A stretch of 58,726 nt of DNA. It comes from a virus. The notes below the pieces were generated by a model. It was not told where the DNA came from. It did not search any database and was given only the letters and a program-made list of their open reading frames with translations. Made by a program: the position numbers and the translations under genes. The stretch is from positions 1 through 58,726 of the IMG/VR virus record IMGVR_UViG_3300010391_000099. One strand, given 5' to 3'. Positions 13,288 through 40,519 of this stretch are shown one piece after another (within the stretch, counting starts at the first letter, position 1; every line of letters starts with the position of its first letter).

Positions 13288-13290
13288 ACG

Positions 13291-13533: not shown

Positions 13534-13561
13534 GTGTTCAATTTCACTCTGGAGGCAAATC

Positions 13562-13828: not shown

Positions 13829-13835
13829 GCAGCCA

Positions 13836-14810: not shown

Positions 14811-14812
14811 CC

Positions 14813-15496: not shown

Positions 15497-15498
15497 AG

Positions 15499-18865: not shown

Positions 18866-18889
18866 CAAGAAGGCAACTGGAGGTGTGAA

Positions 18890-21648: not shown

Positions 21649-24600
21649 GTGGCAACTCAAGAGAATCCGCTAATCCAAAGCCTGACTAGAGCAGGAACAA
21701 AAACGGGAAACCCTCTCATTAGGAGTTTGCAACAAGTTCCACTGGAAGAAGAAAAACCCGGAATTGGCAGATTCGTGCCAGATTTTCTTCGTCGCGCCCT
21801 AGAATCGGAATTTGTTCAACAGGGAGTCGTTGAGCCAGGACAAGCAATCATCGAGAGTGCGGCCTCAATACCACAAGCATTTTTGCCAAGAGAGGAAGTC
21901 GGCCCACTCCGCAGGAGTGAACTTGCGGCCCTTAGGGGAGCGCGTGCTATTGCTGAAACCGCTTTAGGTGCGTTCGCACCATTAGAAACCGCAGCGGAGG
22001 CGATTGAGCCAGCAGTAGAATCCTTAGCTGATCTCAATCCGCTGCAAAGGGCTGCGATGCTGGCGAATCCAGCCACAGCGATTACCTCGGAAGCGGCGAG
22101 AGTCCTAGACCCTAGAGCGCGAGGGACACGGAATGTACTGGAATCAGCTTTTGCTCCATCGGCAGCAGCGGCTACGCAGATTCTTTCTGCGCTTGCTGGG
22201 CCTGTTGAAGCGAATCCTGAATTGGCCGATGTTCCTTTCTCGACCTTTCTGACTACTCCAGGTGCGGCACAGTCAACCATTCCAGAAGTTCGAGAAGTGT
22301 CTGAATTTGTTGGAAGTCTGCTGCCTTTCCTTGCGGTAGGTGCTGGCGCGGAAAGGATAAAGCTACCGGGGCCGCGAGTTGCTACTCCCGTAGAAGCGCC
22401 GCGCCCGATTCGCGGTCTTCTGCCAGGTCAAGTTGTTCCGCCTGAAGTCAGAACTTTTATCGGGCCATCCGAGAAGCCACTAGTTACGCCGCCGCCTGCG
22501 GATGTTTCTGCGGTACGCGGCGTTCCAGCGGAAGTTCCTTTTCGTATAGAGACACGGCCTTCGAGACTACTGACGCCTGGCGAACCTGAAATATCTCTTG
22601 GTGTCAGGGCTGCTCAGTTGCCAGAGCCGAGGATCATTACTCCTCCGCCTATTCAACGGAGAGCGTTGCCGCCTGCTAGACCAACAGCCGAAGAGATTCT
22701 AGCTGGTAGGTTTCAGCCACCCCCTGAGGGAGCTTTGGAGACAGCCGCGCCGCTGACCAATCGGCAGATTATGGAGCGTGCGCCTATCAGAGAAGTAATC
22801 CGCCAGCAGGTACGGGAAGCCGTTCGTACAGAAGTTAGACAAGCAGTAGCTGAGGAGCTAGGCGTACCGTTCCGAGAGGCCAAACCTGTAGAAGCCGCCA
22901 CAAGGCCAGAATTAGCTCAGGAGCCACGAACGGCGGCTATACCGCCTACGGCGGAGGCCATCCGGACTCCTGAAGCCCTACAGCGGCCACAGGAAGCCCC
23001 AGCGCGGCCTATTGCGGAAGCGCCAGCGGTTCCTTTCCGCCCCGAACTCCGCGAAACCACCCCGCAGGAAAGAATCAGGACGTTGGAAGCGGAAACCGGA
23101 GAGTTGACTAAGAGAGTAGGTCAAGCGCGCACGACGCAAGAGCGTACAGAAGTTGAACAGCGGATTCGGGAGAATGAAGGCTTGCTGCGGGAGATGCGGG
23201 GAGAAGAAGCTGCTGCTCCTACCGCTGCGCCGCAAGTTCCTTTCCGAGAGCCAGCGGAAGAAGCGGTTCCGAAGCCAGATCGTTTCCGCGACCTAGCGCC
23301 TGAGAAGAGGCAGCAGTTATCCAGGGCGGTTGAGGAAGACATTGTTGACCTAGAGAAGCAGTTGCGGATTTCCGGTCTTGGGGAGCCGATGGGGTTGGGA
23401 GAAGAGAGGGTACGCCTGAGAGAAGACATTGCGGAAAAGAGAGCGTTGCTGGAAGAACTGCGCGGCAACGTGCGGGAACTTGGAGACGAGTGGGTGTCGT
23501 CCGTGCGCGGATTGAAAGGAAGCCGAGCGTCGTTGGCGAGAGAGATTGTGTCTGACAAGAAGAGGGCGACCCACCCGCTCACGCCAACCGAACAAGACTT
23601 GATTCAGAGCATTGGTGACGGTTTCAACCTCGGAAAAGGAAAGCTGGCAAAGACCGACCCGATGCGCCGCTGGCCGTTGAATGAAGCGAAGGCGCTGAAC
23701 TCACTCATCAAGCGTGGCGTGCTGAAGGTAGTGGAAAAAACGGATGGCCGCCGTGTGATTGAAATAGACGCGGCAGCCGCCGACCGTGCGCTGGGAGAGG
23801 CGATTGCCAAGGAAGCCAATGTAGGAACGGGTAGCAGGAAAGCTCCCGACTTCGGCGGAGCCGGATTTCTTTCGACGGCAGAGGAGGTAGCAGGACTTGC
23901 TCCACTGGAACACCCAAGAGAGAGCGGGTTTGGGCGGGAAGAGAGTCGTGGGCGTCGTGGTGGTAGCGGCGGCGGGCCAGCTAGTGAAATCGTGGCTGAG
24001 TACGGTGGTCGGAACCAAGTCTTCACCCGTGATGCCTATGACGCCGCGCTTCGCAGTGTCAACGAAAAGACAGGGAGATTGAATCTTGGCGCTGATCCTA
24101 CGGTCGCCAAAGACCTTGTAACCATTGGCGGGTATCACTTTGAGGCGGGGCTGCGGACGTTCGCGCAGTGGTCGCAAGCGATGGTGCGGACGGTGGGAGA
24201 GAGGGTTCGCCCGCTGCTGGAGCAGTTGTGGAGCCAAGTGCGGGAGCGGTTTGGGCGTGAGACGCCGACTTTCTACAGTCGTGCGGCAAAGACGCTGGCA
24301 CAGAAGATGCCCGCGAGTGCTACGGCGGAGCAAGTTCGCGGGATTCTTCGCGGGCAGGGAAGTGGGGTAACGGCGGAAGAATTGAAGTGGATTGGGCTAG
24401 AGGACTTCCTGGCGGGGAAGGAGAAGGTGTCGAAGCAGGAGGTCTTGGAGTTCATCCGACAGAATGATGTGAAGATTGAGGAAGTATCGAAGGGAGCACT
24501 GCGCCGATTCCCCTTATTCCTTGAAAGCAAGACAAAAGAGGGGAAGAGGCAGTGGGTAACGAATGAGGGGGATTACGAATACGTCATAACGCAAGAGAGT

Positions 24601-27600
24601 AGAAACCAATTCCGAGCCGAAAGGCACGTAACGAAAAGCGGGCATATGTTGGATGAAGTTTTTGATTCCTATGACAAGGCGGTGTCTTGGTTCAAGGGAA
24701 TGAGGGGCGAGGACTTGACTGGCGGCACGAAGTTTTCACAGTACACCCTCCCTGGCCCGAAGGAGAACTACCGGGAGTTGCTGCTTACGCTGCCGGATAA
24801 GACTGAGCGGGTAGGGATAGACCGGAAAGCTCCTGGAAGCGCCTTGCAGATGACAGAGGCGGAGAGGCGTGCCGGAACATTTACCGGCGGTCACTTCGAG
24901 GAGCCGAATGTTCTCGCCCACGTTCGCTTCGACGACCGGATAGACGCGCAGGGCAAGAAGGTTCTCTTCGTCGAGGAGATTCAATCCGACTGGCACCAGA
25001 AGGGCAAGCGGTATGGGTATCAGCGGCCATTGACCGTCGAAGAGCAGCAGCGAGTAGGCGCATTGCGGGAGGAGTACCGCAGCCTGCAAGAACAACGAGA
25101 ACTGGCATTCGGTGGGATTGAGCAACGAGGACTTCCACGCCTGACCGAACTTGAGGAGCAAAGGCTACCTTCGCTTAGAAGGCTTGAAGAGCGCGGACAG
25201 CTTTCAAGGAATGAGCGAATAGAACTAGAAGAGCTTGAACGTCGCCAAGGTGCGGTCAGAACTCTACCACCAGAGCGATATGAACTTCCCGAAGGCTATC
25301 GAGCCATTGAAGCAACTAACAATCCATCTGAGCGCCGCTGGATAGTCACGGAAGAAGGGAGCACGACAGTCCTCAACGCTGGCCCGACAAGAGAAGCGGC
25401 CATCCGAAACACGATTGATGGATTTAGGGAAGCTGGCAGGCTTACCGGCTACGAATCGCTGGTAGCCCAGCGCGTAAATGGTAGACAGTCTGAAATCAAT
25501 CAAGAGCTGAACACGCTCTACAACAAGCCAACTCAAGGTGTACCAGAAGCTCCCTTCGCAAAGACTTGGCACGAGTTGGTTTTGAAGCGGATGCTGCGTT
25601 ACGCCGCCGAGAACGGCTACGACAAGGTAGGCTGGACGACAGGGGAGCAGCAGGCGGCAAGGTACGACCTGAACAAACAGGTGGATGCGATTCAGTGGAA
25701 TCCTAGGTTTGGGTCAGTTCGCGTGTTGCTCAAAGATGGAGCATGGAAATTCATTAAGGATCGCGGCGTAACCGAGTCTAACCTAGCTGATTATGTAGGA
25801 AAAGAACCAGCGCAGAAACTCATCCAAGGCCCATCCGCTGCGGGCGAACGCTATGCCTTTGGGAAGGCAGAAGAAATTGGCGGCTGGAGGGAAATTCGCG
25901 GCGAAGACTTGAAAGTTGGTGGCGAAGCTCTCAAGTCTCTCTACGACCGCATTCTCCCTGAGTTCTTGAATAAGTACGGGAAGAGATGGGGCGCGGAAGT
26001 TAGAACGGCACAGCTAGAAATGCCGTTCACCGGAGAATTGAGGGGAAGGGCAGGGGAGACGGCGATCCAAGCCCTCGAACGCCAGCGCGGAGGAGAGATG
26101 GCCGATGTTCATTCTCTCACCGTCTCTCCTGAGATGAGGCGGTCTGTGCTTGAGGAAGGGCAACCGCTATTTGGGAGTGAGCGCGGCTTCGCTGCTCCTG
26201 AGTTCGTCTTCGGTGAACGTGGAGCCAAGGCACTGACAAAGGCAGGGGAGAAGTTGCGCGGAGAAGAACAACCAGCGCCGCCCGCCGAGAGGCCACTGAC
26301 GCCTGAAGAGCTACGCCGCCAGCGGATTGCCGAGAAGGGGAAACTGCGCGTACTGCCTGCCGAGCCTAGACCGCAAGTGCCTTTCGCGGTAGCGGAAGCG
26401 CCAAGAGCCGCCGCGCCGCGTCCTGCATCCGAAGTTCTGCCGCAAGTTCCTTTCCGTTCGCCTGCTCCAAGCGGCGCTGGTGGAGTGGGTCAGCCGCCGC
26501 GCCCGCCAGCACGAGGACAACTGGATGTAGCCACGCCGAGATTGAAGCAAGTGGAAGCCGCCCGTGAAGCTCGCCCTAGTAGCGCCAGCCGAATCCTAGA
26601 AACGGCTAAGGAGATTCCGACTAACGCCGTTCGGAAGTTCGTCAGTCAATTCGTTGATATTGAGCAGATGGTTCGCGGCGCACAGAAACGCGGGATAAAG
26701 GTCAAACCTGAGCAGAACCCCGCCATCATCAACGACTTGGTATATGGAGGTACGGGCGGACGGTTGGAACTGGCGGCAATGGACTACCGCGCCGTGGTAG
26801 AGCAGGCAACTAAATCCGGCCTGCGCCGTGCTCTGAACAATTACCTTGACCTACGCGGCTATGACCGAGCCATCAGGATCATTGAAGAGCGGATTGCGGA
26901 AGCGGAAAAGGCGGGAGACAAGAATGCCGCCGCAGAGTTGCGAGGGAGAATTGAACGCAACGAAGTAGTCCCCGCCGAGTACACGCGAGAAACCATTGCT
27001 GCCGACCTGAAGGCTATCGAAGCAAAGCTCGGCCCCAAGAACTTTGCCGAGGTGAAACGCTTGGCGGAACAAGTAAACAATCTGAACCGCGCAGCGTGGG
27101 ACATGGCACACAAGGAAGGGTTGATCTCGCAGGCGGTTTATGACCAAGGGCTTCGGCGCGGCAACGACTACATCCCACTCGAACGGATAATGGATGATGT
27201 GGTTGCCGATTCCCAATCCCGCATCCGACAGACACTCTCGCTCAAACAACAGCAAATCCTAAAGCGGCTGGAAGGATCGAAGCGCGTCAACGTAGACCCG
27301 GTGCAGGCTTCTTTGGAACGGCACGCGGAAACCATCCGTGAGGCTGGGAGAAACGAGGCAGCGCGGACACTGATTGAGTTCCGCAAGATTGACCCCGAAG
27401 GCTTTGGAAAGCAAGTCTTCGAGGTCAAGGAAGGCCAAAAGCTGCCGCAAGGAATGGGCACAATAGCCTTCTACGAGGCTGGCACGAAGAAACTGTTTGC
27501 CATGCCTGATTTGTACGCCAACGCAATGAATCTGGCGAACGCGCATGAGCTGACTTTTTCTAGGAATGCCTTGCTGCGGTTAACTCGAAGTGGGTTCAGG

Positions 27601-29274
27601 GTTGGAGCGACAACTGGCAACCTAGCTTTTTCTCTACCCAACGTAATACGCGACATTTCTGAGATGTCAGTATTGTCCAAGGCTGGGGTGAGCAAGCCAC
27701 TCGACCCGCTGCTCATCATTGGGCAGTTTGCAAAGTCGGTCTATGAGGTTGCCTCGAAGTCGGAACGCTATCGAGAGTTTCTGCGTTCACGAGCAGCGTT
27801 CTCCACCTTGCAGAAGAACATTGACCCGGCCCCATTCCTAGCGCGTGGCGAACCGTTGCAAGGCGTAAAGAGGCTCAATCCGCTACGAGTCATTGACGGA
27901 ATCGAATCGTTCAACAACTGGCTGGAAGAAGCGACAAAACTCACGACCTTCAAGCGTGCTCGGCGTATGGGCATGGCAGAAGTGGAGGCGGCATTTGAGA
28001 CTAGACGTTACGGAGGTTCCCCTGACTTTGCCCGTCGCGGCACAGTAAGCGCGGACATCAATCTGGCGGTGATGTTCTTCAACGCTCAGGTGCAAGGAAT
28101 TACCAGAATGGCAAGGATTCTAGGCCAGCCGCGCCGTTTGGCTGGGTTTCTCTCCGTGATGACAGCGGCGGAATTGGCGCTCTACAGTTGGAATCAGCAA
28201 TTCCGCGATGAAGATGGAAACCTAGAGCTTGACCGCGTGCCACGCTGGGAGCGAGACACGCATTGGGTGATTCTCCGTCCAGATACATACCAGACCAGTT
28301 CGGGAAGAATCCGCCACAGGGTTATCAAAATCCGCAAGGGCGATACGATGGAAGTGGTTTCCAATCCTCTAGAAAGAGCGATTGAGGGAGCGTCTGGCGG
28401 GAAAGTAGATATTCCGCAGGTTGCCTTGGATACGATTTCCGGGCTTACACCTGGACAGCCACAACTCAAGCGTGGCGAGATAGGGAGAAGCCTTGGGCGC
28501 GGCGTAATTTCTACCTTGAATCCCATACTCCGAGCGCCGCTGGAGCAGCTTGCAAACCGTGAGATGTTCCGAGACGTGCCGATAGTGCCGCGCAGTCTAG
28601 AGGAAGCCATACCAGGCGAGCAGAAGCGAGAGACCACCAGTCCGGTTGCGGTCGCGGTGGGTAGAAAGATTGGCGTTAGCCCGCTGAGGCTAGAACACGG
28701 CATCAGGTCATTCTTCGCCGGACTTGGGGAACAAGGGCTAAACATTGCCGATGCCGTTTATGGCGACGACAGGCGGCGTTTGCCATTGGAAGGCGACGAA
28801 GAAATTGCGCGGACTAGAGTGCTTGGGCCAATTCTTCGCCGGTTTGTGGGCAGCACAATGGATCAGAAAGAGAAAGACTTGGAGGAAGATTTCTACGACA
28901 GGTACGACCAAGCACGGGAAACGGTGCGAACCTTCAACTTGATGGCCGAGTCGGATGAAGCGCGGGCGGAGGAGTTTCTGTCCGATCCAGAAAGACTTGT
29001 TCTGTACCATTTGAACGGAGAAATTCAGACAGCGGTGCGAGACTTGAGCGACATCCGGGACTTGCAACGCGAAACGGCGCGCAGCGACATGAGCGACGCG
29101 GAGAAAAAGGAAGCGATACGGTTTTTGCACCAGCAGCGGCTTGAAATCCTTCGCGGCACGACTGAGCTTGTAGAAGAGCTTCTTGCAGAGGAGCGCAGCC
29201 GTAATCCACGACAGTCTGAGAATCGGTTCGTACCATTTAGAGCGCCGGAATCTTTGCCGGAGGCGAGGCCGTAG
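21649..29274 (+). CDS. Giant polyvalent internal virion / ejection protein
   Basis: A 2541-aa protein, GTG start at 21649 with AAGGA at 21636-21640. Low-complexity Pro/Glu/Arg linkers separate several domains. Around residues 1030-1310 lies a domain with LPGPKENYRELL, EEIQSDWHQKGK and WHELVLKRMLRYAAENGYD, a set I associate with large polyvalent phage proteins. Around 1990-2230 is an LPD38-like region (NLAFSLPNVIRD, LEEATKLTTFKRARR, ADINLAVMFFNAQVQ) with a hydrophobic helix near 2165. Seven VPFR-type motifs sit in linkers. By position and size it corresponds to the T7 gp15/gp16 complex: carried in the head and pushed into the cell with DNA. No lysozyme motif was found. Confidence 0.75.
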   Translation: MATQENPLIQSLTRAGTKTGNPLIRSLQQVPLEEEKPGIGRFVPDFLRRALESEFVQQGVVEPGQAIIESAASIPQAFLPREEVGPLRRSELAALRGARAIAETALGAFAPLETAAEAIEPAVESLADLNPLQRAAMLANPATAITSEAARVLDPRARGTRNVLESAFAPSAAAATQILSALAGPVEANPELADVPFSTFLTTPGAAQSTIPEVREVSEFVGSLLPFLAVGAGAERIKLPGPRVATPVEAPRPIRGLLPGQVVPPEVRTFIGPSEKPLVTPPPADVSAVRGVPAEVPFRIETRPSRLLTPGEPEISLGVRAAQLPEPRIITPPPIQRRALPPARPTAEEILAGRFQPPPEGALETAAPLTNRQIMERAPIREVIRQQVREAVRTEVRQAVAEELGVPFREAKPVEAATRPELAQEPRTAAIPPTAEAIRTPEALQRPQEAPARPIAEAPAVPFRPELRETTPQERIRTLEAETGELTKRVGQARTTQERTEVEQRIRENEGLLREMRGEEAAAPTAAPQVPFREPAEEAVPKPDRFRDLAPEKRQQLSRAVEEDIVDLEKQLRISGLGEPMGLGEERVRLREDIAEKRALLEELRGNVRELGDEWVSSVRGLKGSRASLAREIVSDKKRATHPLTPTEQDLIQSIGDGFNLGKGKLAKTDPMRRWPLNEAKALNSLIKRGVLKVVEKTDGRRVIEIDAAAADRALGEAIAKEANVGTGSRKAPDFGGAGFLSTAEEVAGLAPLEHPRESGFGREESRGRRGGSGGGPASEIVAEYGGRNQVFTRDAYDAALRSVNEKTGRLNLGADPTVAKDLVTIGGYHFEAGLRTFAQWSQAMVRTVGERVRPLLEQLWSQVRERFGRETPTFYSRAAKTLAQKMPASATAEQVRGILRGQGSGVTAEELKWIGLEDFLAGKEKVSKQEVLEFIRQNDVKIEEVSKGALRRFPLFLESKTKEGKRQWVTNEGDYEYVITQESRNQFRAERHVTKSGHMLDEVFDSYDKAVSWFKGMRGEDLTGGTKFSQYTLPGPKENYRELLLTLPDKTERVGIDRKAPGSALQMTEAERRAGTFTGGHFEEPNVLAHVRFDDRIDAQGKKVLFVEEIQSDWHQKGKRYGYQRPLTVEEQQRVGALREEYRSLQEQRELAFGGIEQRGLPRLTELEEQRLPSLRRLEERGQLSRNERIELEELERRQGAVRTLPPERYELPEGYRAIEATNNPSERRWIVTEEGSTTVLNAGPTREAAIRNTIDGFREAGRLTGYESLVAQRVNGRQSEINQELNTLYNKPTQGVPEAPFAKTWHELVLKRMLRYAAENGYDKVGWTTGEQQAARYDLNKQVDAIQWNPRFGSVRVLLKDGAWKFIKDRGVTESNLADYVGKEPAQKLIQGPSAAGERYAFGKAEEIGGWREIRGEDLKVGGEALKSLYDRILPEFLNKYGKRWGAEVRTAQLEMPFTGELRGRAGETAIQALERQRGGEMADVHSLTVSPEMRRSVLEEGQPLFGSERGFAAPEFVFGERGAKALTKAGEKLRGEEQPAPPAERPLTPEELRRQRIAEKGKLRVLPAEPRPQVPFAVAEAPRAAAPRPASEVLPQVPFRSPAPSGAGGVGQPPRPPARGQLDVATPRLKQVEAAREARPSSASRILETAKEIPTNAVRKFVSQFVDIEQMVRGAQKRGIKVKPEQNPAIINDLVYGGTGGRLELAAMDYRAVVEQATKSGLRRALNNYLDLRGYDRAIRIIEERIAEAEKAGDKNAAAELRGRIERNEVVPAEYTRETIAADLKAIEAKLGPKNFAEVKRLAEQVNNLNRAAWDMAHKEGLISQAVYDQGLRRGNDYIPLERIMDDVVADSQSRIRQTLSLKQQQILKRLEGSKRVNVDPVQASLERHAETIREAGRNEAARTLIEFRKIDPEGFGKQVFEVKEGQKLPQGMGTIAFYEAGTKKLFAMPDLYANAMNLANAHELTFSRNALLRLTRSGFRVGATTGNLAFSLPNVIRDISEMSVLSKAGVSKPLDPLLIIGQFAKSVYEVASKSERYREFLRSRAAFSTLQKNIDPAPFLARGEPLQGVKRLNPLRVIDGIESFNNWLEEATKLTTFKRARRMGMAEVEAAFETRRYGGSPDFARRGTVSADINLAVMFFNAQVQGITRMARILGQPRRLAGFLSVMTAAELALYSWNQQFRDEDGNLELDRVPRWERDTHWVILRPDTYQTSSGRIRHRVIKIRKGDTMEVVSNPLERAIEGASGGKVDIPQVALDTISGLTPGQPQLKRGEIGRSLGRGVISTLNPILRAPLEQLANREMFRDVPIVPRSLEEAIPGEQKRETTSPVAVAVGRKIGVSPLRLEHGIRSFFAGLGEQGLNIADAVYGDDRRRLPLEGDEEIARTRVLGPILRRFVGSTMDQKEKDLEEDFYDRYDQARETVRTFNLMAESDEARAEEFLSDPERLVLYHLNGEIQTAVRDLSDIRDLQRETARSDMSDAEKKEAIRFLHQQRLEILRGTTELVEELLAEERSRNPRQSENRFVPFRAPESLPEARP

Positions 29275-29582: not shown

Positions 29583-29972
29583 ATGGGCAAGATAATCCGG
29601 GCAGCGGTTTTGCTGCTGGTACTAGTGGTGTGTCCGCACGCTGAAGCCAGCACTGTGTCGGGAACCTTGAAAGACATCGGCGGCGCGGCCATAACCGGAA
29701 GAAACGGTTTTGTCCGAATGGAGTTGCGTAACTTCGGCGCAGCCATTCCCAAGGTTTCAGGAACCAACATCATCGCCGTCAGAAGCAAGGACTTCTTCCC
29801 CAACGCCAGCGGGAACATCTCAGGTGACATCACTGGCAACGACACCATCACGCCAGCCCAAACTTTCTATCGGGTGTGCTTGTTTTATCAGGGAGTTCTT
29901 TTTCGATGTAATGACTACGACATCAACGGCGCTTCTTTCAACCTAAACACGGCCACTCCGAGGCAACCCTAA
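29583..29972 (+). CDS. Exported single-domain protein, paralogue of fibre N-terminus
   Basis: A 129-aa protein with a Sec signal peptide: MGKIIRAAVLLLVLVV followed by a probable cleavage after HAEA (near residue 22). The mature part aligns over its whole length with residues 20-125 of the fibre, sharing FVR[MF]ELRNF, GNISG, ITGNDTI and FRC.DY. Two Cys residues (near 98 and 108) may form a disulphide in the periplasm. It is thus a free-standing copy of the fibre's first domain. Function unknown; it may cap or compete with the fibre. Confidence 0.7.
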   Translation: MGKIIRAAVLLLVLVVCPHAEASTVSGTLKDIGGAAITGRNGFVRMELRNFGAAIPKVSGTNIIAVRSKDFFPNASGNISGDITGNDTITPAQTFYRVCLFYQGVLFRCNDYDINGASFNLNTATPRQP

Positions 29973-29973
29973 A

Positions 29974-32900
29974 ATGATTCGACGCAGCTTGCAGTTGTTG
30001 TGTCTGCTACTTTTCTCGGCCATCGGGCTATCGGCCACTACGGTCAGCGGAAACCTGAAGAACGCCGGGATCGAAAATGTCACTGACCGCAATACCTTCG
30101 TCCGATTCGAGCTTCGGAACTTTTCCTCCAACATTCCCAGAGTCGCCGCCTCTCACGTCATCGCCGTGGTCATAAAGGATTTTCCACCGGACGCGAACGG
30201 AAACATCTCCGGGTCAATCACTGGCAACGACACCATAATTCCCGCCGGAACTTTTTTCCGTGTCTGCATTTTCAACGCAGGCAGTCAATTCCGTTGCGCC
30301 GACTATCTAATCACGGGATCAACCTTCGACCTCGACACCGCCACGCCCATCACTACTGCGCCCGTACCAGGGCTTCCATCGGTTTACACAACGATTCTGG
30401 AAGAAGGGACGGAACTGGTAGGCCGTTTCAAGCTGAACTTCATCGGTAGTTCAATCACTTGTGCCGACAACCCATCTACTCTGCGAACCGATTGCACCCT
30501 CACCGGCGGCGGCGGAACTCCGGGCGGGGCGGATACACAGATTCAATTCAACGACGCGGGAGCGTTCGGCGGCGATGCCGACTTCACTTGGAACAAGACG
30601 ACCAACGTATTGACTTTGAGCGGCGATTTGGAGATTGCACGAGGTAGTGTTGCTGACAGCATCCGCATTGGTGGAGGCTCATCTTCTACCTTTACAGGAA
30701 ACATTGCGCTGGGAGAAGCTGCCGCCTCGACAGGAGACAACGATTCCATTGCCATCGGTCATACGGCAGTAGCTTCCAACAACGATGCTATCGCCATCGG
30801 GTTCATTACGGCCAGCGGCAACAGCGCCACCGCCATCGGGCGTTCCAACAACGGCGCATCGGGAAATGGTGCGGTAGCCATCGGAACCAGCACCAACGTC
30901 AGTGCGCTAAACTCGATTGGGATAGGCGACACAGCCACCGTCAGCCAGGCTTCAGCGGTTGCTATTGGAGCAGGGGCAGCGGTTACTCAATCCGGCGGGG
31001 CGGATTCCGGTGTAGCCATCGGGCATAGCACCGCCGTTACCAATGTCCAGAACGGAATCGCCATCGGCAACGGTTCTGTAGTCACTCATCAAGCCTCCAT
31101 CGCCCTCAATGGCAGTTCAAGCGCGGCCAACCAGATGACGATTGGCGACACCAGTGGCGCAACTACACGCATCAACTCAATCCGTGTGGGCGCGGCGGAT
31201 TCGACTTTCGGCATCCTCGATTTCGCCAGCCTTGCTACTTCCAGTAAGACCTTCACCTTCGCTAACGCCAGCGGGACTATCTGTACCACAGGGACATTCT
31301 GCTCTGGCACCGGAACCAACCCGTTCTACGGCATACGAATTGTGGATGATGTGGTGTTCACCGACCTACCTTCCGCTGAAACGGATTGCAGCACAAGTGC
31401 CTGCATTGTCCTCGTTCGCCCTAGCGAGGGCGCGGGGACATTCACCCGCCAGAACTGGAACGAGACGGCTGGCTTGCTCGACTTGCGGCAGTTGGGTGGA
31501 CAGTTTACCGGCCTGACTGCCATCAAAGCTCCTTTCGACTTCCAAGCCCGGCGCACCACTGGCACCGCAGCCACACTCGATGTGCAGAGCACGCTCGATG
31601 TGACGATGTACCACGATGCGGGCGGTGAGAACGTCGGCGGCGGGCCGAAAGACCAGTATCAGGGAATCCGGCTCTACAACATCTCGGCAGGCAAGGGTGA
31701 AGACCACGGCTATTGGGGCGAGGTAGTCAAGCTGGGTGAGGGGGACGCCACAGGGATTCTAGCTACCTCCATGCAGGCGGGAAATTGCCTAGAAGGCGGT
31801 GGGGAATGTGCGACAGGTGGACGCTTCACTTCTCGGCAAGGGACGAGTACGGAAGTGATGACCGCCACCGTGTCAAGCTACACGGGCGGGTCGCGCACTA
31901 TCGCCTACTCCAGCCCGGTCAATGAATCGGCGCGAGGAGAAGGCCGCTACATCACCAACACCAACGCGGCTAAGATTTACTCAACTGGCACCATTTCCAG
32001 CGTGAGCACTACTACTCCGGCAACTGTGACCGGTTCGGGCACGCTTTGGGCAACCCAATTCGGGGCCGGGGCGCACACTGACCTCTGCTTCTCGCAGGCC
32101 GATGATGATGCGGCTGGCTTTAAGTTTGTCGTTCCTATTCGCTCGATAACCTCTGAGACCGTGCTGGTGCTGGACTTCGACCCGATGGCGCTGGACAGGA
32201 ATTGGCCTGGAGATGTCAACGGCTCTACGGTCTACCGGATTTACAAGTGCGCGCAGGTAGAAACCATTAATTACGCGGGCGGGTCTTTCACGCATAGTTC
32301 GGGCGGCACGACCGATTGGGTTGCTACCGACACTTTGGAAGTTCCGCTGGGCTGGGCGTGGTTCGGTTCGGCAGGAACTTTCATAGTACAGAACGACCTT
32401 CCTAGTTTCGAGGCCAAGGGGATCGTAATTACCAACACTACCAGCGATGAACCGATGCGGTCTGTCGCATCTATTGGGGGCAAAGCCTATCTCGGCCTTC
32501 TGTTCGGGAACACCTGGTCGTGCTATGCAGGGAACACCAACTGCTCTCAGGGTTCAACGACTGGAATCTACTATGCCAACCCGCCCACACTCGGCACGGT
32601 CTACGCTTCCTCAGCAGCGGGCAACAACATTTTCTTCCGGCTGGTGGACACAACCGGCGGAGTTACGGGCAACTTCGATGCCTATTACAACACTAGCGGC
32701 GACTCGCTCAACTTCGAGCACAGCACGTCTCTCACAACTCCGATTGTGTTGCAGCCCAGCACTGGCGGTTTAACCACCAACATCCACACCATCCGCAACC
32801 AGGATGCTTTGCGGCTGGGGGAATTGACTGCAAATGGCTCTCAGTTTGTGGCGCACCGTGCAGCAGCGGCGATCACCACCAGCCCGACCTACACTTGGCC

Positions 32901-35900
32901 GGAGACAACCGATAATCGATTTCTCAATAGCGGCACAGGTGGGACGCTTGTTTGGTCGCAGGTGGCCTTCACTGATCTTACCGGAACGGCCACGGCTGGG
33001 CAGGTTCCGAATTTAGAGAATTTGAACGGCACGCTCGACCTGGCTTCAGGTGGAACGAATCAGTCTTCGTGGACGGCAAGCCGGTGCGTACAGGTCAATG
33101 CTGGTGGTACGGCGCTGGAGTCAGCTTCGGCGGCTTGCGGCTCCGGCGGATCGGGAGATAACATCACCATCAATACCACGGCGGCCACCGACGCCAATTT
33201 CAACGACACCGACCCTGCTGCTGTCGGTTCGGGGCTGAATGTCAAGTTTCAGATTGATACCACCGACACTCCCGACAACATCTCCGCCTACGTCCAAGAG
33301 GCCAGTATATCTCAAGCAGGCATCGTCACCACCGCCGCACAAACCTTCAACGGCGAGAAGACGATGGATGACGGCGTGATTGCGCTGACCTACAAGACGA
33401 CTGCCGCCGACTTGCCAGAGAGCGGGCAGTATCGTGTCGGGGTGGGGGACATCATCGCCTTTGAAGGCGCAGGGGGGGATGATGTTCAACTGAAGGCCAC
33501 GAACGTAACCAGCCGAACAGTTGTTGACCTGTTCAATTCTGCCGACCCGATAACTTCCATCGGAGGGACGGCTCAACTCCGTTATCACGGCAGTTTCGGG
33601 GAGTTGCGCTTTGGGCAGTACGACGACCTTCAGTGCGGCGACTCTCTCGGATTCTACGGTCTGTACGTCCACGACAACTTCAGCGTGTCCTTTGGGCCGG
33701 ATTGTGTAACCGACCACCAACACGCGATGCGGGTGATGAAGGTTTGGCGGTCAACTGGTAGCGATGGCGGTACTTCTGAGGCTGCACTTCAAGTAGTTGG
33801 CGGTGTAGGGACGACTGGAACTCAAACAGGAACCTTGTCGCAAGCCAATATGGTGTACGTCATTGCTGATTACGAAGGTGGCAGCGGGCATACAGCAACC
33901 ATTTTCCGTGGCATCTACATTGAGCCGACCACCGGCCAATTGGGTGGCGGCGCTGGAACGGTAACAACCTGGGACAACATCGCCGTCAGCTACGCAAACC
34001 TTAGTCTAGCCACGACAGTTACGACTATGAACGACATTCACCTTGGGGCTGCTGCCCTGGATGGCAGTTTTGCGACCTCGCGTGGCTTGTTCATCGAGAA
34101 GCGTTCAGGAGCAACCACCAACGTCGGTGCATTGATTCAGATGGCCGAGAACACGCTGAGCCTGCAACTGGAAGACCCTGACAACCCCGCCAACGGTTCT
34201 TTCAAGGACGCGCCGATCCTGCGACTCACTGGATCCTACGATTCTGACGCTGGGGCAGGCGTTACCCGCACCACCCGCGACGCCGACATCATTCACAACG
34301 TTATGTCCACTACTCCGGCCAGCCAGCTTGACTTCAAGATTGGCGGCACGGTGCGCCTTAGCATCCTCGACACGAACGGCCTTGACCTTGGAACAGGTAC
34401 GAATCTTTCTAGCTGGCGTCATTCTTCCATCAGCTTCGAGGGCGCGACCGATGACGCATTCGAGACTACCATCAACATCGCAGACGCAACCGCCGACCGT
34501 GCAGTAAATGTTCCCAACACCGACTCGTCAACCGGACAAGCTGTAACCTGCTCCGGCACCGACAAAGTTTCTGCTTTCAGCGCGGCGACTGGTGCGTTCA
34601 CCTGCACGGCAGATGTGAGCGGGGGTAGTCCGACGTGGAACTCCATCGCCAGTCCGGTCGGCGCTCAAGCCTTGACGATGGGAGCCAACAACACTACTTG
34701 GACGTGGGATTCTGCCAGCGGAGTTTTCCTGTCCACCTTCAGTTCGGCTTTCTCGTCGGGAAGCCAGTTCAAGATCAACGCCACCGGAGCTTTCACGGGC
34801 GGGACACTGTTAGAAGTCGCCCAGGAAACCGGTAACACAACCAGCACCGGCCCGTTGATGGCAATTCGCGCCGCTGACGTGACCTTGACGGAATTGCTAC
34901 GGATTGACCACAGCGGAGATGCGGATGCCATTATTGCGATTGATTCTGGCTCTACTGCGGCCTTCGGCGCGTTTATCAAATTCTATGACCGGGGAACCCT
35001 GAAATGGGAGTACGGTAAAGAGACTGGCGGGAACAACTTTGTGGGGCCATTCGATAATTCGGTAAGTGTTATTCGGCAATATTTTCAGGCTGGGTCTCAC
35101 AGCAGCTACGCCAGCGGCTCGACGACCGGCGACCACATCTTTACCGACAGCGTTGGTACAGAGCGGTTCCGCATCCTGGGCGACGCCGACACCATCGCCA
35201 TCGGCAATTCGGAGAACACAACGCTGACACGGCTGGCGGCTGACTCACTCGACCTGCCCGGAACCCTTCAAAACAGTGGTGCGGCTTTGGTCTTTTTGAT
35301 GGACGCCACCACAGAGACCCTCAGCAACGACATCACAGCGGCCTTCTCCACCGGCTCTCAATGGCGGGTGAACGTGACCGGCGCACCCACTGGCGGCATC
35401 GCGGCGCAGTTCATTCAGCAGACAGGGAATCCAACGCTCCTGACGCTTGTTGATATGCGCGCTGCCGATGTAAATGTGACGGTACTGCGAGCCGGAGACG
35501 GCACGAACGGCATCACGCTGTCCCAGGCTGGGGCGTTGACGGCTGAGGGTACAGGCACAATCATCGCCACCGACCTTTCCTGTACCAACTGTATCGGGCC
35601 GACTGAGATCACCGACCTCACGCTTTCTACCGACACCGCCGGAAACTACGTCTCGAACGTGGCTGACGGTTCCGGCATTGATGTAACGGGCACAGCGGGC
35701 GAAGACTGGACGGCAACTGTCAACCTGCTCTACACCGACACACTGGCTGGCAACCCGGCGATGAATGCCGATGAGTGCCGGTTCTCGACCGACGGCACAG
35801 GAGGAGGAATCATTTGTGAAGGTGCGGCGGATACAATCGAGGGTCTACTGGTTTGGAACCCTGCTACTTCCGACCGCACCCTTACCCTGCCCGACGCGAC

Positions 35901-36498
35901 CGATACCCTCGTAGGCAAAGCCACTACCGACATTCTGACGGGCAAGACGATTGACGTGGAAGGCACTGGGAATGTCATCACCACCGTCAGCAAGGTTTGG
36001 ATTCCCGCCGCCACCTGTGTAACGGCCACGGCCACGCTCAACTGGGACGACGACCCAGCGGTGGCCGAGCCTGCGGCGGCTTGTGTTGCTGGCACGAATA
36101 TCACAAAGGGATTAGCTGATTTCTCGGATGCAGCAACGAACGCGATGCAGATGCCCTTGATGCTGCCCGCCGACTTCACCGGCAACATTGACGTGCTGAT
36201 CAAGTGGCTCTCGACCGCCATCACCGGCAACGTCAAATGGCAGGTAGCGACCATCTGCGTAGCCGATGCTGAGACTGATGACCCTGCGTTCACCGCAGCC
36301 TCGACGGTCACGGACACGACTAAGGGTACGGCGAGTCAACTCAACGACGCCGCGATTACCGCTCTGACTATTACTGGCTGCGCGGCGGGTGAATTGATGC
36401 ATCTTCGAGTGCTAAGAGACCCAGCAGATGCGGCAGACACACTCGGAGCTACAGCGCGTCTCTATGGCGTAGAACTGACGATGAGAAGAGCACAATGA
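29974..36498 (+). CDS. Giant tail fibre / adhesin with signal peptide
   Basis: A 2174-aa protein rich in Thr, Ser, Gly, Asn and Asp. Residues 1-20 (RRSLQLLCLLLFSAIGLSA) form a Sec signal peptide, unusual for a virion protein. Then come an exported beta domain shared with the previous gene (20-125), a Gly-rich linker, and a YadA-head-like left-handed beta-roll (about 255-395) with repeated AIAIG, TAIG, VAIG and GIAIG turns. The long remainder is repetitive beta structure; one module of about 75 residues occurs twice (near 1590-1650 and 1785-1840, both with AFS.GSQ, TG and AADV). No intramolecular chaperone tail is obvious. Likely the host-recognition fibre; secretion as an adhesin is the alternative. 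Confidence 0.75.
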   Translation: MIRRSLQLLCLLLFSAIGLSATTVSGNLKNAGIENVTDRNTFVRFELRNFSSNIPRVAASHVIAVVIKDFPPDANGNISGSITGNDTIIPAGTFFRVCIFNAGSQFRCADYLITGSTFDLDTATPITTAPVPGLPSVYTTILEEGTELVGRFKLNFIGSSITCADNPSTLRTDCTLTGGGGTPGGADTQIQFNDAGAFGGDADFTWNKTTNVLTLSGDLEIARGSVADSIRIGGGSSSTFTGNIALGEAAASTGDNDSIAIGHTAVASNNDAIAIGFITASGNSATAIGRSNNGASGNGAVAIGTSTNVSALNSIGIGDTATVSQASAVAIGAGAAVTQSGGADSGVAIGHSTAVTNVQNGIAIGNGSVVTHQASIALNGSSSAANQMTIGDTSGATTRINSIRVGAADSTFGILDFASLATSSKTFTFANASGTICTTGTFCSGTGTNPFYGIRIVDDVVFTDLPSAETDCSTSACIVLVRPSEGAGTFTRQNWNETAGLLDLRQLGGQFTGLTAIKAPFDFQARRTTGTAATLDVQSTLDVTMYHDAGGENVGGGPKDQYQGIRLYNISAGKGEDHGYWGEVVKLGEGDATGILATSMQAGNCLEGGGECATGGRFTSRQGTSTEVMTATVSSYTGGSRTIAYSSPVNESARGEGRYITNTNAAKIYSTGTISSVSTTTPATVTGSGTLWATQFGAGAHTDLCFSQADDDAAGFKFVVPIRSITSETVLVLDFDPMALDRNWPGDVNGSTVYRIYKCAQVETINYAGGSFTHSSGGTTDWVATDTLEVPLGWAWFGSAGTFIVQNDLPSFEAKGIVITNTTSDEPMRSVASIGGKAYLGLLFGNTWSCYAGNTNCSQGSTTGIYYANPPTLGTVYASSAAGNNIFFRLVDTTGGVTGNFDAYYNTSGDSLNFEHSTSLTTPIVLQPSTGGLTTNIHTIRNQDALRLGELTANGSQFVAHRAAAAITTSPTYTWPETTDNRFLNSGTGGTLVWSQVAFTDLTGTATAGQVPNLENLNGTLDLASGGTNQSSWTASRCVQVNAGGTALESASAACGSGGSGDNITINTTAATDANFNDTDPAAVGSGLNVKFQIDTTDTPDNISAYVQEASISQAGIVTTAAQTFNGEKTMDDGVIALTYKTTAADLPESGQYRVGVGDIIAFEGAGGDDVQLKATNVTSRTVVDLFNSADPITSIGGTAQLRYHGSFGELRFGQYDDLQCGDSLGFYGLYVHDNFSVSFGPDCVTDHQHAMRVMKVWRSTGSDGGTSEAALQVVGGVGTTGTQTGTLSQANMVYVIADYEGGSGHTATIFRGIYIEPTTGQLGGGAGTVTTWDNIAVSYANLSLATTVTTMNDIHLGAAALDGSFATSRGLFIEKRSGATTNVGALIQMAENTLSLQLEDPDNPANGSFKDAPILRLTGSYDSDAGAGVTRTTRDADIIHNVMSTTPASQLDFKIGGTVRLSILDTNGLDLGTGTNLSSWRHSSISFEGATDDAFETTINIADATADRAVNVPNTDSSTGQAVTCSGTDKVSAFSAATGAFTCTADVSGGSPTWNSIASPVGAQALTMGANNTTWTWDSASGVFLSTFSSAFSSGSQFKINATGAFTGGTLLEVAQETGNTTSTGPLMAIRAADVTLTELLRIDHSGDADAIIAIDSGSTAAFGAFIKFYDRGTLKWEYGKETGGNNFVGPFDNSVSVIRQYFQAGSHSSYASGSTTGDHIFTDSVGTERFRILGDADTIAIGNSENTTLTRLAADSLDLPGTLQNSGAALVFLMDATTETLSNDITAAFSTGSQWRVNVTGAPTGGIAAQFIQQTGNPTLLTLVDMRAADVNVTVLRAGDGTNGITLSQAGALTAEGTGTIIATDLSCTNCIGPTEITDLTLSTDTAGNYVSNVADGSGIDVTGTAGEDWTATVNLLYTDTLAGNPAMNADECRFSTDGTGGGIICEGAADTIEGLLVWNPATSDRTLTLPDATDTLVGKATTDILTGKTIDVEGTGNVITTVSKVWIPAATCVTATATLNWDDDPAVAEPAAACVAGTNITKGLADFSDAATNAMQMPLMLPADFTGNIDVLIKWLSTAITGNVKWQVATICVADAETDDPAFTAASTVTDTTKGTASQLNDAAITALTITGCAAGELMHLRVLRDPADAADTLGATARLYGVELTMRRAQ

Positions 36499-37010
36499 GG
36501 CGCGAACTAGCAATCTGCTTCTTTCTGACTTGGCTATTGGCAACGGTGTTTTCGCCTGAGCTTGCAACAGGTCTGCTCCTGTTGTCCGTATCAGTGGCGC
36601 TTCCTGCTTGGCAGGCCATCTTCGGCGCGGGGCAGTCCGTGGGCAACGTAGACCAGACGAATGTAGTCGGCTGGAAGATTCGCTATGCTGACGCCAGCAT
36701 ATCCAGCGGCACCACTTTCCTCGCTTGGACGCTGGCTCCGTCTACCAATGTAGTGACGGCGGCTTTCTTTCTCGCTGACCAGTATGACGAAGCGGACGAC
36801 CCGACGCGCTACAACTTCGTCAACCTCTTCGCCCATGAAACAAACTACTGGTTCGTGGATGGGCTGGCCTACGGCGGCGGCTCGGAATTGCCTGTTGGTC
36901 TGCCGCTAGGTGCGGCGAAGGCTGGGGTGGCAGCGCCCGCTACAAACCAAGAAGCAGCCGACCGTGACACTGTTTACAACGCTGCTTTGGCTGACAGAGT
37001 TTGGGGATGA
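36495..37010 (+). CDS. Membrane-anchored or exported protein with WKI-Y domain
   Basis: A 171-aa protein coupled to the fibre gene (ATGA at 36495). The first 45 residues hold two hydrophobic stretches (ICFFLTWLLATVF and LLLLSVSVALPAW). The rest has GWKIRYADAS, LAWTLAPSTNVVTAA and NYWFVDG, a pattern shared with the protein at 37204-37650. This aromatic beta domain (W-K-I-x-Y ... W ... A-P ... V ... Y-[YW]-[YF]-x-D-G) resembles short domains seen near phage fibre genes. Function unknown. Confidence 0.6.
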   Translation: MRRELAICFFLTWLLATVFSPELATGLLLLSVSVALPAWQAIFGAGQSVGNVDQTNVVGWKIRYADASISSGTTFLAWTLAPSTNVVTAAFFLADQYDEADDPTRYNFVNLFAHETNYWFVDGLAYGGGSELPVGLPLGAAKAGVAAPATNQEAADRDTVYNAALADRVWG

Positions 37011-37216
37011 GTGATGACGAGCCGGATGAAATACGCCGCCTGCGCCACAAAGTCGCCAGACTGCGAAACGTTCTGGTGTGGGCACTGGACAATCGCAACG
37101 CTTACGACAACGATTTCTGCCGCTGGTGTTGGAAACTCGGCGGGCAGCACAACCCTGGCTGCTGGGTTGAACGGGCGGAGAAAGTATTGAAGGAGACCGG
37201 AGAATGGAGCGGCTGA
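37007..37216 (+). CDS. Small Cys/His protein (69 aa)
   Basis: Coupled to the previous gene (ATGA at 37007). The sequence has CRWC at residues 39-42, then His49 and Cys53 (C-x2-C-x6-H-x3-C), a possible zinc site. The N-terminus is acidic then basic. No family recognised. Confidence 0.55.
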   Translation: MSDDEPDEIRRLRHKVARLRNVLVWALDNRNAYDNDFCRWCWKLGGQHNPGCWVERAEKVLKETGEWSG

Positions 37217-37650
37217 AGAAAGTCAACTGGCTAGTCGTAGCTGTTGTACTGGCATTCCTTCTGTTCGCAGCGTGGGCGCTGTTTGGCGAAGAAGCGCCGC
37301 ACGTCAGGCAGCCAGAACTCAAGGTGCTGTGCTGGAAAATCTGGTACAGCAGCAAGGTTGTTACTTGCAAGCAGGTGACGTGGGATAAAGCACCAGCCGA
37401 CGATGTGCAAGCGACTGTCATTTGGTACGCTCAGACCTATCACACTTTCTCAGATGGCAAGTGGCGCGAGGAGCACTATCGCCACATCTGCTCAGGAGAG
37501 GACTACTACTATCTCGACGGCTGCGGCAGCGCCGATGAAGCCGCTGCCTATAAGGGGCCACACTCGGTCAAGCTGGGTAAATGGACTTCCGACCGCAACT
37601 TTCAGCGCATCTACAACCGCGCGATGAAGGACTTGAGGCCACCACAATGA
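37204..37650 (+). CDS. Single-pass membrane protein with extracytoplasmic WKI-Y domain
   Basis: A 148-aa protein with one transmembrane segment (residues 8-28, LVVAVVLAFLLFAAWALF) and a C-terminal domain that would face the periplasm. That domain carries CWKIWYSSKVV, TWDKAPADDVQA and DYYYLDG, aligning with the 171-aa protein upstream, plus four Cys residues that may pair. ATG 37204 overlaps the previous gene by 13 bases. The next gene is coupled through ATGA. Confidence 0.62.
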   Translation: MERLKKVNWLVVAVVLAFLLFAAWALFGEEAPHVRQPELKVLCWKIWYSSKVVTCKQVTWDKAPADDVQATVIWYAQTYHTFSDGKWREEHYRHICSGEDYYYLDGCGSADEAAAYKGPHSVKLGKWTSDRNFQRIYNRAMKDLRPPQ

Positions 37651-39002
37651 GACTCCTCAAGTCCATCCTCCTGACCGTCGCCCTTGTCTTTGCTTTCTCG
37701 CTCGATGCGTCGGCGCAGATAGCGGTGAAGAAGGGGAGCTTCACGGCCAACACGGGCACTGGTAATCAAGCCGTAACTGGAGTTGGGCTAGGGGTTGCGG
37801 GAAAAGCTATAATCTTCTTTACTACCAACCAGACCGCAACCGGAACGGCTGCTGACCAGGCGATTGCCTTTGGCTTTGCTACTAGCTCTACCAACCGCGG
37901 TACTCGTCACGCCTACAACAACGATAACGCAGCCACGACGGCCAACGCGCACGGCGGTTCCGACACTAAATGCCTCGATCTTCGGGACACTGGTGGCAAT
38001 ATCAAGGTTGAAGCGGATTTCGTGTCTTTTGATGGATCAGACGGAAATTTCACGGTCAATATAACAACTGCTGGTTCCGCCCTCATCGTCCACTACATCG
38101 TTTTGGGCGGCGCTGATCTTACCAATCAGACGGTGAAAGTTCTGGCACTGACTGCCGGAACGGGTAATGTTGCCTACACAGGTGTTGGCTTCCAGCCGAA
38201 TTTCGGCATTTGGGTCACGGTGAATGACACCGGAACTGGCTCGGCAGTCAACCTAACCTACGCCGTGGGGTGGGCGGTAAACACCTCCAAACGCGGGGCC
38301 GTCTCCATCAATGCTGATAATGGCGTGACGATGACCACGCAGATGGACTGGAACCGCATCATCGCCAATGACCGCGCCCTCGTTTGTCTGACTAATGCCG
38401 CTTCCACGCTCGATGTCGAATTTGACTTCGTATCTTGGGATTCTGACGGCGTGACCTTCAACCAAATCAATGCTCCTACTGTCAATACTCAACTGCTCGG
38501 ATTGTTCCTCAAGGGCGGGCAGTACGATGCAGGGAGTTTCTCCGCTCGGACGACAACAGGTGACGACAACATCACCGTCGCGTTTACGCCCAAAGCAATG
38601 ATGTTCGGAATGGCGCAAGGCGTGACCGCAAACCGCACTGTGACCGCCGATGCGAATATGGCTTTCGGTGCTGGGACTTCCACAGATGGGACAGCGGAAG
38701 GTTCAGTTTCTACCGCAGCAAGCGATGCTGTACTCAACACTCAGGCCGACCAGCGAACCGTAACCACGAAGGTCATCACTTCTCTTGTTGACGGCGCACC
38801 GGGAGGTGTAGACGGAGAAGCTGACCAAACCGCTTTGGGAACGACAACCACAATCAACTGGACGGACGCTCCCGCGACAGCCGACATTGTAATTTGGGCC
38901 GCCTTCGGCGACGCCGCTGCTCCCGCCGTCGTCAAGCCACGCAGGAGAGTGATAATCACTCAGTTGGAGCCAAGAGAGTACGAGTACGAGGCGACCCGGT
39001 GA
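37647..39002 (+). CDS. Exported repetitive beta protein (451 aa)
   Basis: Starts at ATG 37647 (ATGA overlap). The first 23 residues are a clear Sec signal peptide ending DASA-Q. The mature protein has three related segments of about 130 residues, each with TG.GN/DD..V, a KA[IM]-F or P.FGIWV strand, and a later A.GF/VGWA/MAFG.. turn. Thr, Asn and Ala dominate. It may be a second fibre or a secreted adhesin/decoration protein. It ends in a basic-acidic tail (KPRRRVIITQLEPREYEYEATR region). Confidence 0.65.
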   Translation: MRLLKSILLTVALVFAFSLDASAQIAVKKGSFTANTGTGNQAVTGVGLGVAGKAIIFFTTNQTATGTAADQAIAFGFATSSTNRGTRHAYNNDNAATTANAHGGSDTKCLDLRDTGGNIKVEADFVSFDGSDGNFTVNITTAGSALIVHYIVLGGADLTNQTVKVLALTAGTGNVAYTGVGFQPNFGIWVTVNDTGTGSAVNLTYAVGWAVNTSKRGAVSINADNGVTMTTQMDWNRIIANDRALVCLTNAASTLDVEFDFVSWDSDGVTFNQINAPTVNTQLLGLFLKGGQYDAGSFSARTTTGDDNITVAFTPKAMMFGMAQGVTANRTVTADANMAFGAGTSTDGTAEGSVSTAASDAVLNTQADQRTVTTKVITSLVDGAPGGVDGEADQTALGTTTTINWTDAPATADIVIWAAFGDAAAPAVVKPRRRVIITQLEPREYEYEATR

Positions 39003-39304: not shown

Positions 39305-39766
39305 ATGAACGGGCACTCAGCCTTAGTTTTGTACTGCTTCTTGACCGGAACAGTCGGCCTCGCCGCCGCCAGTGGCGTTGACCCACTGTGGATTATCCTC
39401 ATCCTCTTGCTTCTGGTGGGCGCACTGGAGTGGATGAACGTGCGCGCCATTCAGTCCATCAAGGGTGACATCGCGGGAATGAATATCGTCCTGTTCGGGA
39501 AGGACAGGACAGGGGGGTTGTGGCAAGCCGTGTACCATCCCAAGCATGGCCTAGTCAGGGCAGGGAATGACTACAACATGGCGCTGGCTTTTCTTCTCCA
39601 GCAGGGAAGCCAGGTGGTTCGGGCGGTGGCGGAAGCGGAAAGCTATCCAGAAGCCCGCCAGAGACTCCGGCCTTTTCTCACTCACAGCCAGAGCGAGATC
39701 GCAGAATTGCGCGACAGGCTGAAGGGATTGGAGCTTGCGCCAAGCGGTTTTGTGAAAGCTGAGTAA
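39305..39766 (+). CDS. Two-pass membrane protein in lysis cassette (153 aa)
   Basis: ATG 39305. Two hydrophobic helices (LVLYCFLTGTVGLAAASG and WIILILLLLVGALEW, residues 7-45) are followed by a soluble helical region of about 100 residues (ALAFLLQQGSQVVRAVAEAE). It could be a holin-associated protein or antiholin given its neighbours. No family recognised. Confidence 0.55.
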   Translation: MNGHSALVLYCFLTGTVGLAAASGVDPLWIILILLLLVGALEWMNVRAIQSIKGDIAGMNIVLFGKDRTGGLWQAVYHPKHGLVRAGNDYNMALAFLLQQGSQVVRAVAEAESYPEARQRLRPFLTHSQSEIAELRDRLKGLELAPSGFVKAE

Positions 39767-39788
39767 ACCAAATCAAAAGGAGACAGAC

Positions 39789-40040
39789 GTGAACCTAGAG
39801 CAGTTGAGTAGCCCGAAGACTTGGCTGGCGGGATTGGTGAGCGCGGCCATCACAGGAGCGGCCAATGCAGCTACCGCGATCTTGGTGGCCCCGGAAACAT
39901 TCAACATCCACGAAGGGTTGTCGAAGCTGGGCACAATGGCGATGGCCGGGGCGTTTATTGGCGTCATAGCCTATTTGAAGCAAAGCCCGCTCCCGCCAAC
40001 CTGGGACGGTAAGGATCGCAGAGAGTCTAAGAATCCGTGA
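39789..40040 (+). CDS. Putative holin
   Basis: An 83-aa protein with GTG start at 39789 behind AAAGGAGACAGAC. Two hydrophobic segments (WLAGLVSAAITGAANAATAILV near 12-33 and LGTMAMAGAFIGVIAYL near 47-63) are joined by a short loop, and the C-terminus is short and charged (DGKDRRESK). This is the shape of small two-helix holins, and the next gene, coupled by GTGA, looks like a cell-wall peptidase. It would make the inner-membrane hole that releases the endolysin. Confidence 0.65.
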   Translation: MNLEQLSSPKTWLAGLVSAAITGAANAATAILVAPETFNIHEGLSKLGTMAMAGAFIGVIAYLKQSPLPPTWDGKDRRESKNP

Positions 40041-40519
40041 AGCTGAAGAGAGAAGGAGTTGTCCTCGTCGGCCTTCACCCCGAAGTGTACTTCTACTGTG
40101 GTGTGGCCGATGAAATCTGGCGGCGCGAGTTGGGCGAAGAGTTCGCGGTAACGAACGCCTTTGCAGGCCGAAACTACTTGAGCTTCCACACCAAAGGGCT
40201 TGCCGTAGATGGAAGGACGATGAAGTGGTTTGACTACGGGAAGTGGAGGCATCAACGGAAGCTATTGGAAGTGGTAGCGATGCTTCGCCAGCGACTTGAC
40301 AGCCGGGGCTTTGATGTTGTGCTCGCACCCGACGACCTGACGGCTGACAACATCACCAAGCGATTTTCGGATGAAAGGCTTCGCGCCCTCATCGGCCACT
40401 CGGATAGAGCCAAGATTAGTGACGAGCAGTTGGAAGTCCTGCGTCGGCAGATTCCACCGCACTGCCACGGTGAGTTTGACCCAAAGCCGGGGGAAGTTCT
40501 GTGGCCTGCCGTAGACTGA
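40037..40519 (+). CDS. Endolysin, M15-like D,D- or L,D-peptidase
   Basis: A 160-aa protein starting at GTG 40037, coupled to the holin-like gene. Zinc ligands of the VanY/M15 fold are visible: the motif S-x-H-x2-G-x-A-x-D (Ser49, His51, Asp58) and a later His-Cys-His-Gly-Glu (residues 142-146) supplying the catalytic Glu and third His. T5 endolysin and related phage enzymes cut the peptide stem of peptidoglycan with this fold. There is no signal peptide, in keeping with holin-dependent export. Last rightward gene before the divergent regulator locus. Confidence 0.72.
   Translation: MKLKREGVVLVGLHPEVYFYCGVADEIWRRELGEEFAVTNAFAGRNYLSFHTKGLAVDGRTMKWFDYGKWRHQRKLLEVVAMLRQRLDSRGFDVVLAPDDLTADNITKRFSDERLRALIGHSDRAKISDEQLEVLRRQIPPHCHGEFDPKPGEVLWPAVD

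Follow-up and report, generated by a model that had tools for sequence, protein, structure and literature searches.

Signal peptides and paired cysteines suggest that some tailed phages export their distal tail fibres

The virions of tailed phages, ordinary tail fibres included, are taken to be built wholly in the cytoplasm. Virion proteins with signal peptides are known from filamentous phages: pIII and pVIII of M13 carry them and are processed at the inner membrane, and pIII has disulfides. The exported fibres proposed here have the signal peptide in common with pIII and pVIII but show no homology to them, and M13 is a non-tailed phage that is assembled at the membrane and extruded. The known tail fibres of Caudoviricetes have no signal peptide and few cysteines. 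Late addition of a fibre has a precedent in T4, the annotation of which says of gp12 that it 'can be added after phage completion'. No exported tail fibre of a tailed phage with an experimentally shown precursor was found in the open-access literature. Lambda Lom is a signal-peptide-bearing protein encoded beside the tail spike and tail fibre genes (PMC12309495).

The DNA analysed here, referred to as the window, comes from IMG/VR, where it is a tailed-phage record of 58.7 kb (IMGVR_UViG_3300010391_000099; 58,726 nucleotides); it has a 99-bp terminal repeat, so it is probably a complete genome. Its features are collected in Table 1, together with two genes from related contigs. In the nearest capsid relative of the window (G020), too, a signal-bearing protein is encoded downstream of the capsid genes. 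The head-gene module of the window includes a Radical SAM/SPASM protein and two methyltransferases (7432-9961); Radical SAM/SPASM is also found at 11172-12215 of contig L137 and the gene recurs near the capsid genes of G021, modification of virion proteins being a possible role. Two separate window genes, at 1995-2699 and 47784-49562, match large-terminase PHROGs (phrog_2 and phrog_2666), and a 169-aa protein with a lipobox-like N-terminus (ATFGC; 57951-58460) is a possible phage lipoprotein. A capsid relative of the window, the 38-kb viral contig L132 (IMGVR_UViG_3300032829_000294), carries a Type I-C-like CRISPR-Cas set at 10780-19522, with Cas3, Cas5, Csd1/Cas8c, Cas7, Cas4 and Cas1 (Cas2 lay outside the search) and an array of about 15 repeats, the spacers of which had no convincing match among the loci fetched for this analysis.

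Table 1 Features of the window and of two related loci (positions are those of the window unless a contig is named)
Feature	Position	Strand	Basis or remarks
Major capsid gene	11538-12770		phrog_1328
2541-aa polyvalent protein (LPD38, DarB-like), zero Cys	21649-29274	+	Pfam/PHROGs; directly before the exported-protein region
129-aa putative exported protein: signal peptide and solo copy of the N-terminal domain of the 2174-aa protein	29583-29972	+	
Predicted signal peptide of the 129-aa protein	about 29583-29648	+	
2174-aa putative exported fibre-like protein	29974-36498	+	
Predicted signal peptide of the 2174-aa protein, 21 aa	29974-30036	+	Cut placed by homology with the 129-aa protein and L050
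TVSGxLK N-terminal domain of the 2174-aa protein, predicted all-beta	30037-30351	+	Model pLDDT 74
YadA-head-like repeats (AIAIGxxAxAxx) in the 2174-aa protein	30661-31173	+	Extent by eye; PF05658 17.9 bits, under the 25-bit cut-off
C-terminal jelly-roll/CBM-like tip domain of the 2174-aa protein, four conserved Cys	35974-36495	+	Cys at domain positions 15, 37, 95 and 136
171-aa protein, two N-terminal hydrophobic segments	36495-37010	+	ORF and hydrophobicity
148-aa protein, N-terminal membrane anchor, then four Cys	37204-37650	+	ORF and hydrophobicity
451-aa putative exported protein, beta-rich composition, 2 Cys	37647-39002	+	Signal peptide 37647-37715
Probable lysis genes adjoining the fibre block: 153 aa (two membrane segments), 83 aa (holin-like), 160 aa (M15-peptidase-like)	39305-40519	+	160-aa endolysin assigned by an M15-peptidase-like motif seen by eye; no family match
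Docking gene of L005, 234 aa, signal-less	L005, 7230-7934		phrog_1640, 1.6e-25; directly upstream of the exported fibre gene, 4-nt overlap
Docking gene of L024, signal-less	L024, 4768-6333		phrog_8469; the exported fibre gene starts about 11 nt later

The preliminary description had placed signal peptides at the start of the 129-, 2174- and 451-aa proteins and membrane segments at the N-termini of the 171- and 148-aa proteins; all five open reading frames lie where it had put them. A home-made heuristic gave the same picture. The first three proteins have n-, h- and c-regions of the Sec/SPase I type, with a positive n-region, a hydrophobic core and small residues at -3/-1, and hydrophobic segments are present at the N-termini of the other two. 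The predicted cuts fall between MGKIIRAAVLLLVLVVCPHAEA and STVSG in the 129-aa protein, between MRLLKSILLTVALVFAFSLDASA and QIAV in the 451-aa protein, the start codon of which lies inside a 473-aa open frame, and between MIRRSLQLLCLLLFSAIGLSA and TTVSG in the 2174-aa protein, which has Leu at -3. For the last of these the heuristic favoured a later site and the cut was placed before TTVSG by homology to the 129-aa protein and to a protein of contig L050.

As controls, the heuristic called none of 29 T7 genes and none of 39 genes in 40 kb of T4. Among E. coli proteins MalE and LamB were positive and MalK and XylE negative, and the membrane anchors of MalF and MalG were also positive, so signal peptides and N-terminal anchors look alike to the method. 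In the 171-aa protein two hydrophobic stretches follow each other, and the 148-aa protein has a single N-terminal helix, which makes it more likely that these two are membrane-anchored than that they are cleaved; they may belong with the adjacent probable lysis genes and not with the fibres. Pfam and PHROGs gave no family match for the 171-aa protein and none better than E = 0.03 for the 148-aa protein, for which a search of named phages returned one chance-level match. The mature 451-aa protein had no named-phage homologue and no relatives of it were found.

Comparison of the 129-aa protein with the N-terminal domain of the 2174-aa protein showed the two to be paralogues (56-60% identity), with an invariant Cys pair, VC..FRC. 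A third copy of this TVSGxLK domain was found in a 1209-aa protein of contig L050 (62.5 kb), directly after a signal peptide cut between MKRCFLLLALVCLLAPLGLRA and QVTVSG, and this protein is preceded by a cysteine-free giant protein, as in the window. A polyvalent protein is also encoded at 3-5072 of contig L007, with portal-like, LPD38 and 2'-5' RNA ligase/Acb1-like parts and a possible anti-CBASS domain. The TVSGxLK domain had no relative in the named-phage collection, and its model gave no Foldseek match with E ≤ 0.001. It occurs both alone and at the N-terminus of the fibre, and is a candidate connector in the window.

A signal peptide followed by YadA-head-like repeats is also the arrangement of the YadA trimeric autotransporter adhesins. 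These end in an anchor barrel, whereas the 2174-aa protein ends in a jelly-roll tip common to phage fibres. No Pfam anchor match was found and the C-terminus was modelled as a soluble beta sandwich, and a trimeric autotransporter was rejected. Lom, the outer-membrane protein of lysogenic conversion, is a beta-barrel membrane protein, whereas the window protein is large and fibre-like and had no match to the Lom or OmpX family in Pfam or PHROGs; a small beta-barrel conversion protein of this type was rejected too.

The last 174 aa of the 2174-aa protein were modelled as a beta-sandwich (pLDDT 87), the fold of which has a weak likeness to carbohydrate-binding modules and the K2 tailspike and a clearer one to an uncultured Caudovirales protein and other viral models. 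A sequence match ties this domain to gp74 of EBPR siphovirus 2. It is likely to be the sugar- or receptor-binding end of the exported fibre. Window-type tip domains were found on 18 viral contigs and had no relative in an 84,980-species bacterial and archaeal genome collection, and no prophage copy of the tip or N-terminal domain, which could have led to a bacterial host, was found. The gp74-type tip occurs on 429 viral contigs, of which 80 were fetched. In a tree of 87 tip domains the two types formed separate clades with full support.

Eighteen members of the window clade (window included) were scored, and every complete protein has a signal peptide or an internal signal-like segment; in L009 the 5' part of the gene spans the contig ends. 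Protein length varies between 215 and 2174 aa and the stretch that joins signal to tip is for the most part unrelated from one member to another; retention of the signal across such lengths in 18/18 makes a chance signal unlikely. In the gp74-type clade there were no credible signals in 63 scored viral rows, L079 having been set aside as it was scored only from an internal start. The N-termini of this signal-less clade resemble tail-fibre docking or collar sequences, and three members (L070, L103 and L060) match PHROG profiles of tail or tail-fibre families. The L114 protein is nested in the signal-less clade, yet has its own signal peptide. There are only two signal gains on the tree, so a sign test has no power.

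The cysteines track the signal. All members of the signal-bearing clade but one have the four tip cysteines, compared with none or one of the four in the signal-less clade. Eight cysteines, arranged as four tight pairs, are present in the mature L114 protein, and four of the eight lie in the tip at shifted positions; this looks like an independent gain of signal and paired cysteines. The same swap is seen in a separate small domain when exported L023 (CGTGVSCAYQAGDKFGYQ) is compared with signal-less L018 (TGTGASSAYQAGDKFGYQ). Counted for exported mature proteins with at least four cysteines, an even number was found in 33 of 36, against 59 of 96 others (P = 0.0006), although the family members are related and these are therefore not independent events. 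The 28 cysteines of the mature 2174-aa protein fall one after another into close pairs, 14 in total (P = 0.0002 when compared with random placement); the 2541-aa protein next to it is cysteine-free. Cysteine density was 1.58 against 1.05 per 100 aa, and richness was dropped as the sole test, as parity, pairing and the swap with signal-less homologues discriminate better. The patterns used to find the tip held some of the cysteine columns, but never the N-terminus. Disulfide formation in an oxidising compartment is the simplest reading of the paired cysteines, and would mean that the export signals work. Because conservation of the signal is joined by even, paired cysteines, which are indirect support for a location outside the cytoplasm, export into such a compartment is very likely.

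These data also bear on whether the signals could be an artefact, produced by misplaced start codons, by chimeric contigs or by genes captured from a host. The starts are predicted ones, and that of L023 has to be internal to a long GC-rich frame, but independent contigs agree, both a terminal repeat and a major capsid gene are present in the window, the bacterial genome collection lacks the tip domain and the evolution of the cysteines tracks the signal. We regard an artefact as very improbable and rejected it.

The hydrophobic N-terminus might instead be an uncleaved anchor, the fibre then being a type II membrane protein that tethers virions or fibres to the inner membrane. Such anchoring would suit L013 (1492-3681) and L022 (3622-7377), in which an N-terminal part of 80-90 aa, of cytoplasmic type, precedes a signal-like segment that is internal and bears a cleavage motif; the two parts have 'YRLLTR' in common and may be a fused docking domain or a membrane tether. 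The 148-aa window protein is anchor-like, and the heuristic does not separate anchors from signal peptides. In most members, however, the n-region is short and the cleavage site is of the AxA type, with Q as a frequent next residue, and the hydrophobic core directly abuts a domain that is also found behind other signal peptides. An uncleaved anchor is thus an improbable explanation of the family.

Homology of shaft or tip to tail fibres was found for the family, and for the window protein through its C-terminal domain. Over a short stretch, shaft pieces of the exported 863-aa protein of L005 reach 81% identity with the signal-less protein annotated as tail fibre in podovirus MW202697, and L114 matches tail-fibre PHROGs at 1e-42. 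The exported proteins have tips, shaft modules or a docking domain homologous to those of Caudoviricetes tail fibres (EBPR siphovirus 2 gp74, MW202697, PHROGs 1640, 9942 and 18345) and the gene order of the late tail region in common with them. They differ in that a Sec-type signal replaces or splits off the docking domain, which usually marks the virion end of a tail fibre and is missing from their chain, and in their paired cysteines. L020 had no named-phage homologue.

L005 and L024 encode the docking part separately, in a gene that has no signal and stands directly upstream of that for the exported fibre (Table 1), and the L005 product matches many larger tail-fibre families in their N-terminal docking part. 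PHROG profiles recognised this domain; the T7 gp17 N-terminus had no match among local ORFs. A type IV prepilin-like gene (PF07963 N_methyl, 3e-10) lies at 12607-13071 of L005, a few genes downstream of the exported fibre. In the window 2174-aa protein no in-chain docking domain was found with Pfam or PHROGs, the sole hit being a sub-threshold YadA_head, and at most loci, the window included, no docking protein was recognised beside the exported fibre.

The preliminary description had offered two readings, secreted adhesins and virion fibres made from exported subunits. Export, common to both, is strongly supported by the conservation of the signal and the evolution of the cysteines, and the proteins are derived from tail fibres. 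The second reading is favoured, by that derivation and most of all by L005 and L024, where the docking domain has an upstream, signal-less gene to itself. Going by these comparisons of sequence, it is somewhat probable that distal receptor-binding tail fibres are exported, disulfide-bonded and docked to virions at or after lysis. Sec would take the fibres across the inner membrane and signal peptidase I would remove the signal peptide; once in the periplasm, or outside, the fibres would become disulfide-bonded and probably trimeric. They would stay separate from the virions, whose docking proteins would be assembled in the cytoplasm, until lysis mixed the compartments and let the fibres dock onto the tails. 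We see an even chance that a widespread group of tailed phages works in this way, with docking proteins and tails cytoplasmic and receptor-binding fibres secreted, SPase-processed, periplasmically disulfide-bonded and attached only at or after lysis. We have good support for export, and attachment to the virion is a step that we infer; that step is weaker for the window than for L005, as no docking partner was recognised in the window. Late attachment must also overcome dilution at lysis.

The main rival, possible though doubtful, is that the proteins are secreted, non-virion adhesins or receptor-blockers in which tail-fibre parts are reused to coat the infected cell or nearby surfaces. They would occupy receptors, and in this way keep sister phages from superinfecting and progeny from sticking to debris, or they would bind or degrade extracellular polysaccharide. 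A secreted copy would need a signal peptide where a fibre has its docking domain; several loci have runs of exported genes that include right-handed beta-helix proteins, which could be enzymes and count against a virion fibre, as does the membrane tethering that the N-terminal parts of L013 and L022 could mean. Lambda Lom, with its signal peptide, is encoded between the tail spike and tail fibre genes (PMC12309495). Receptor blocking, however, predicts a virion-borne copy of the tip as well. Sixteen of the 18 records have one tip copy, the second copies in the other two are in or beside signal-bearing proteins, and no signal-less copy was seen in the 18, an absence that is uncertain because many records are fragments. 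This, with the docking gene immediately preceding the exported fibre in L005 and L024, leans against secreted adhesins and towards fibres that join the virion.

Given the cytoplasmic origin of ordinary fibres, exported fibres hint that phage fibres may be made or used in a way not recognised so far. If true, they would alter the understanding of assembly, fibre stability and receptor blocking, and would have a bearing on the laboratory production of such fibres, because periplasmic, disulfide-bonded receptor-binding proteins would need the Sec and Dsb functions of the host. Secreted decoys, if that is what these proteins are, would be a new strategy of superinfection control. On either reading, the 'secreted' signal-peptide proteins of environmental viral contigs may often be fibres and not auxiliary metabolic genes.
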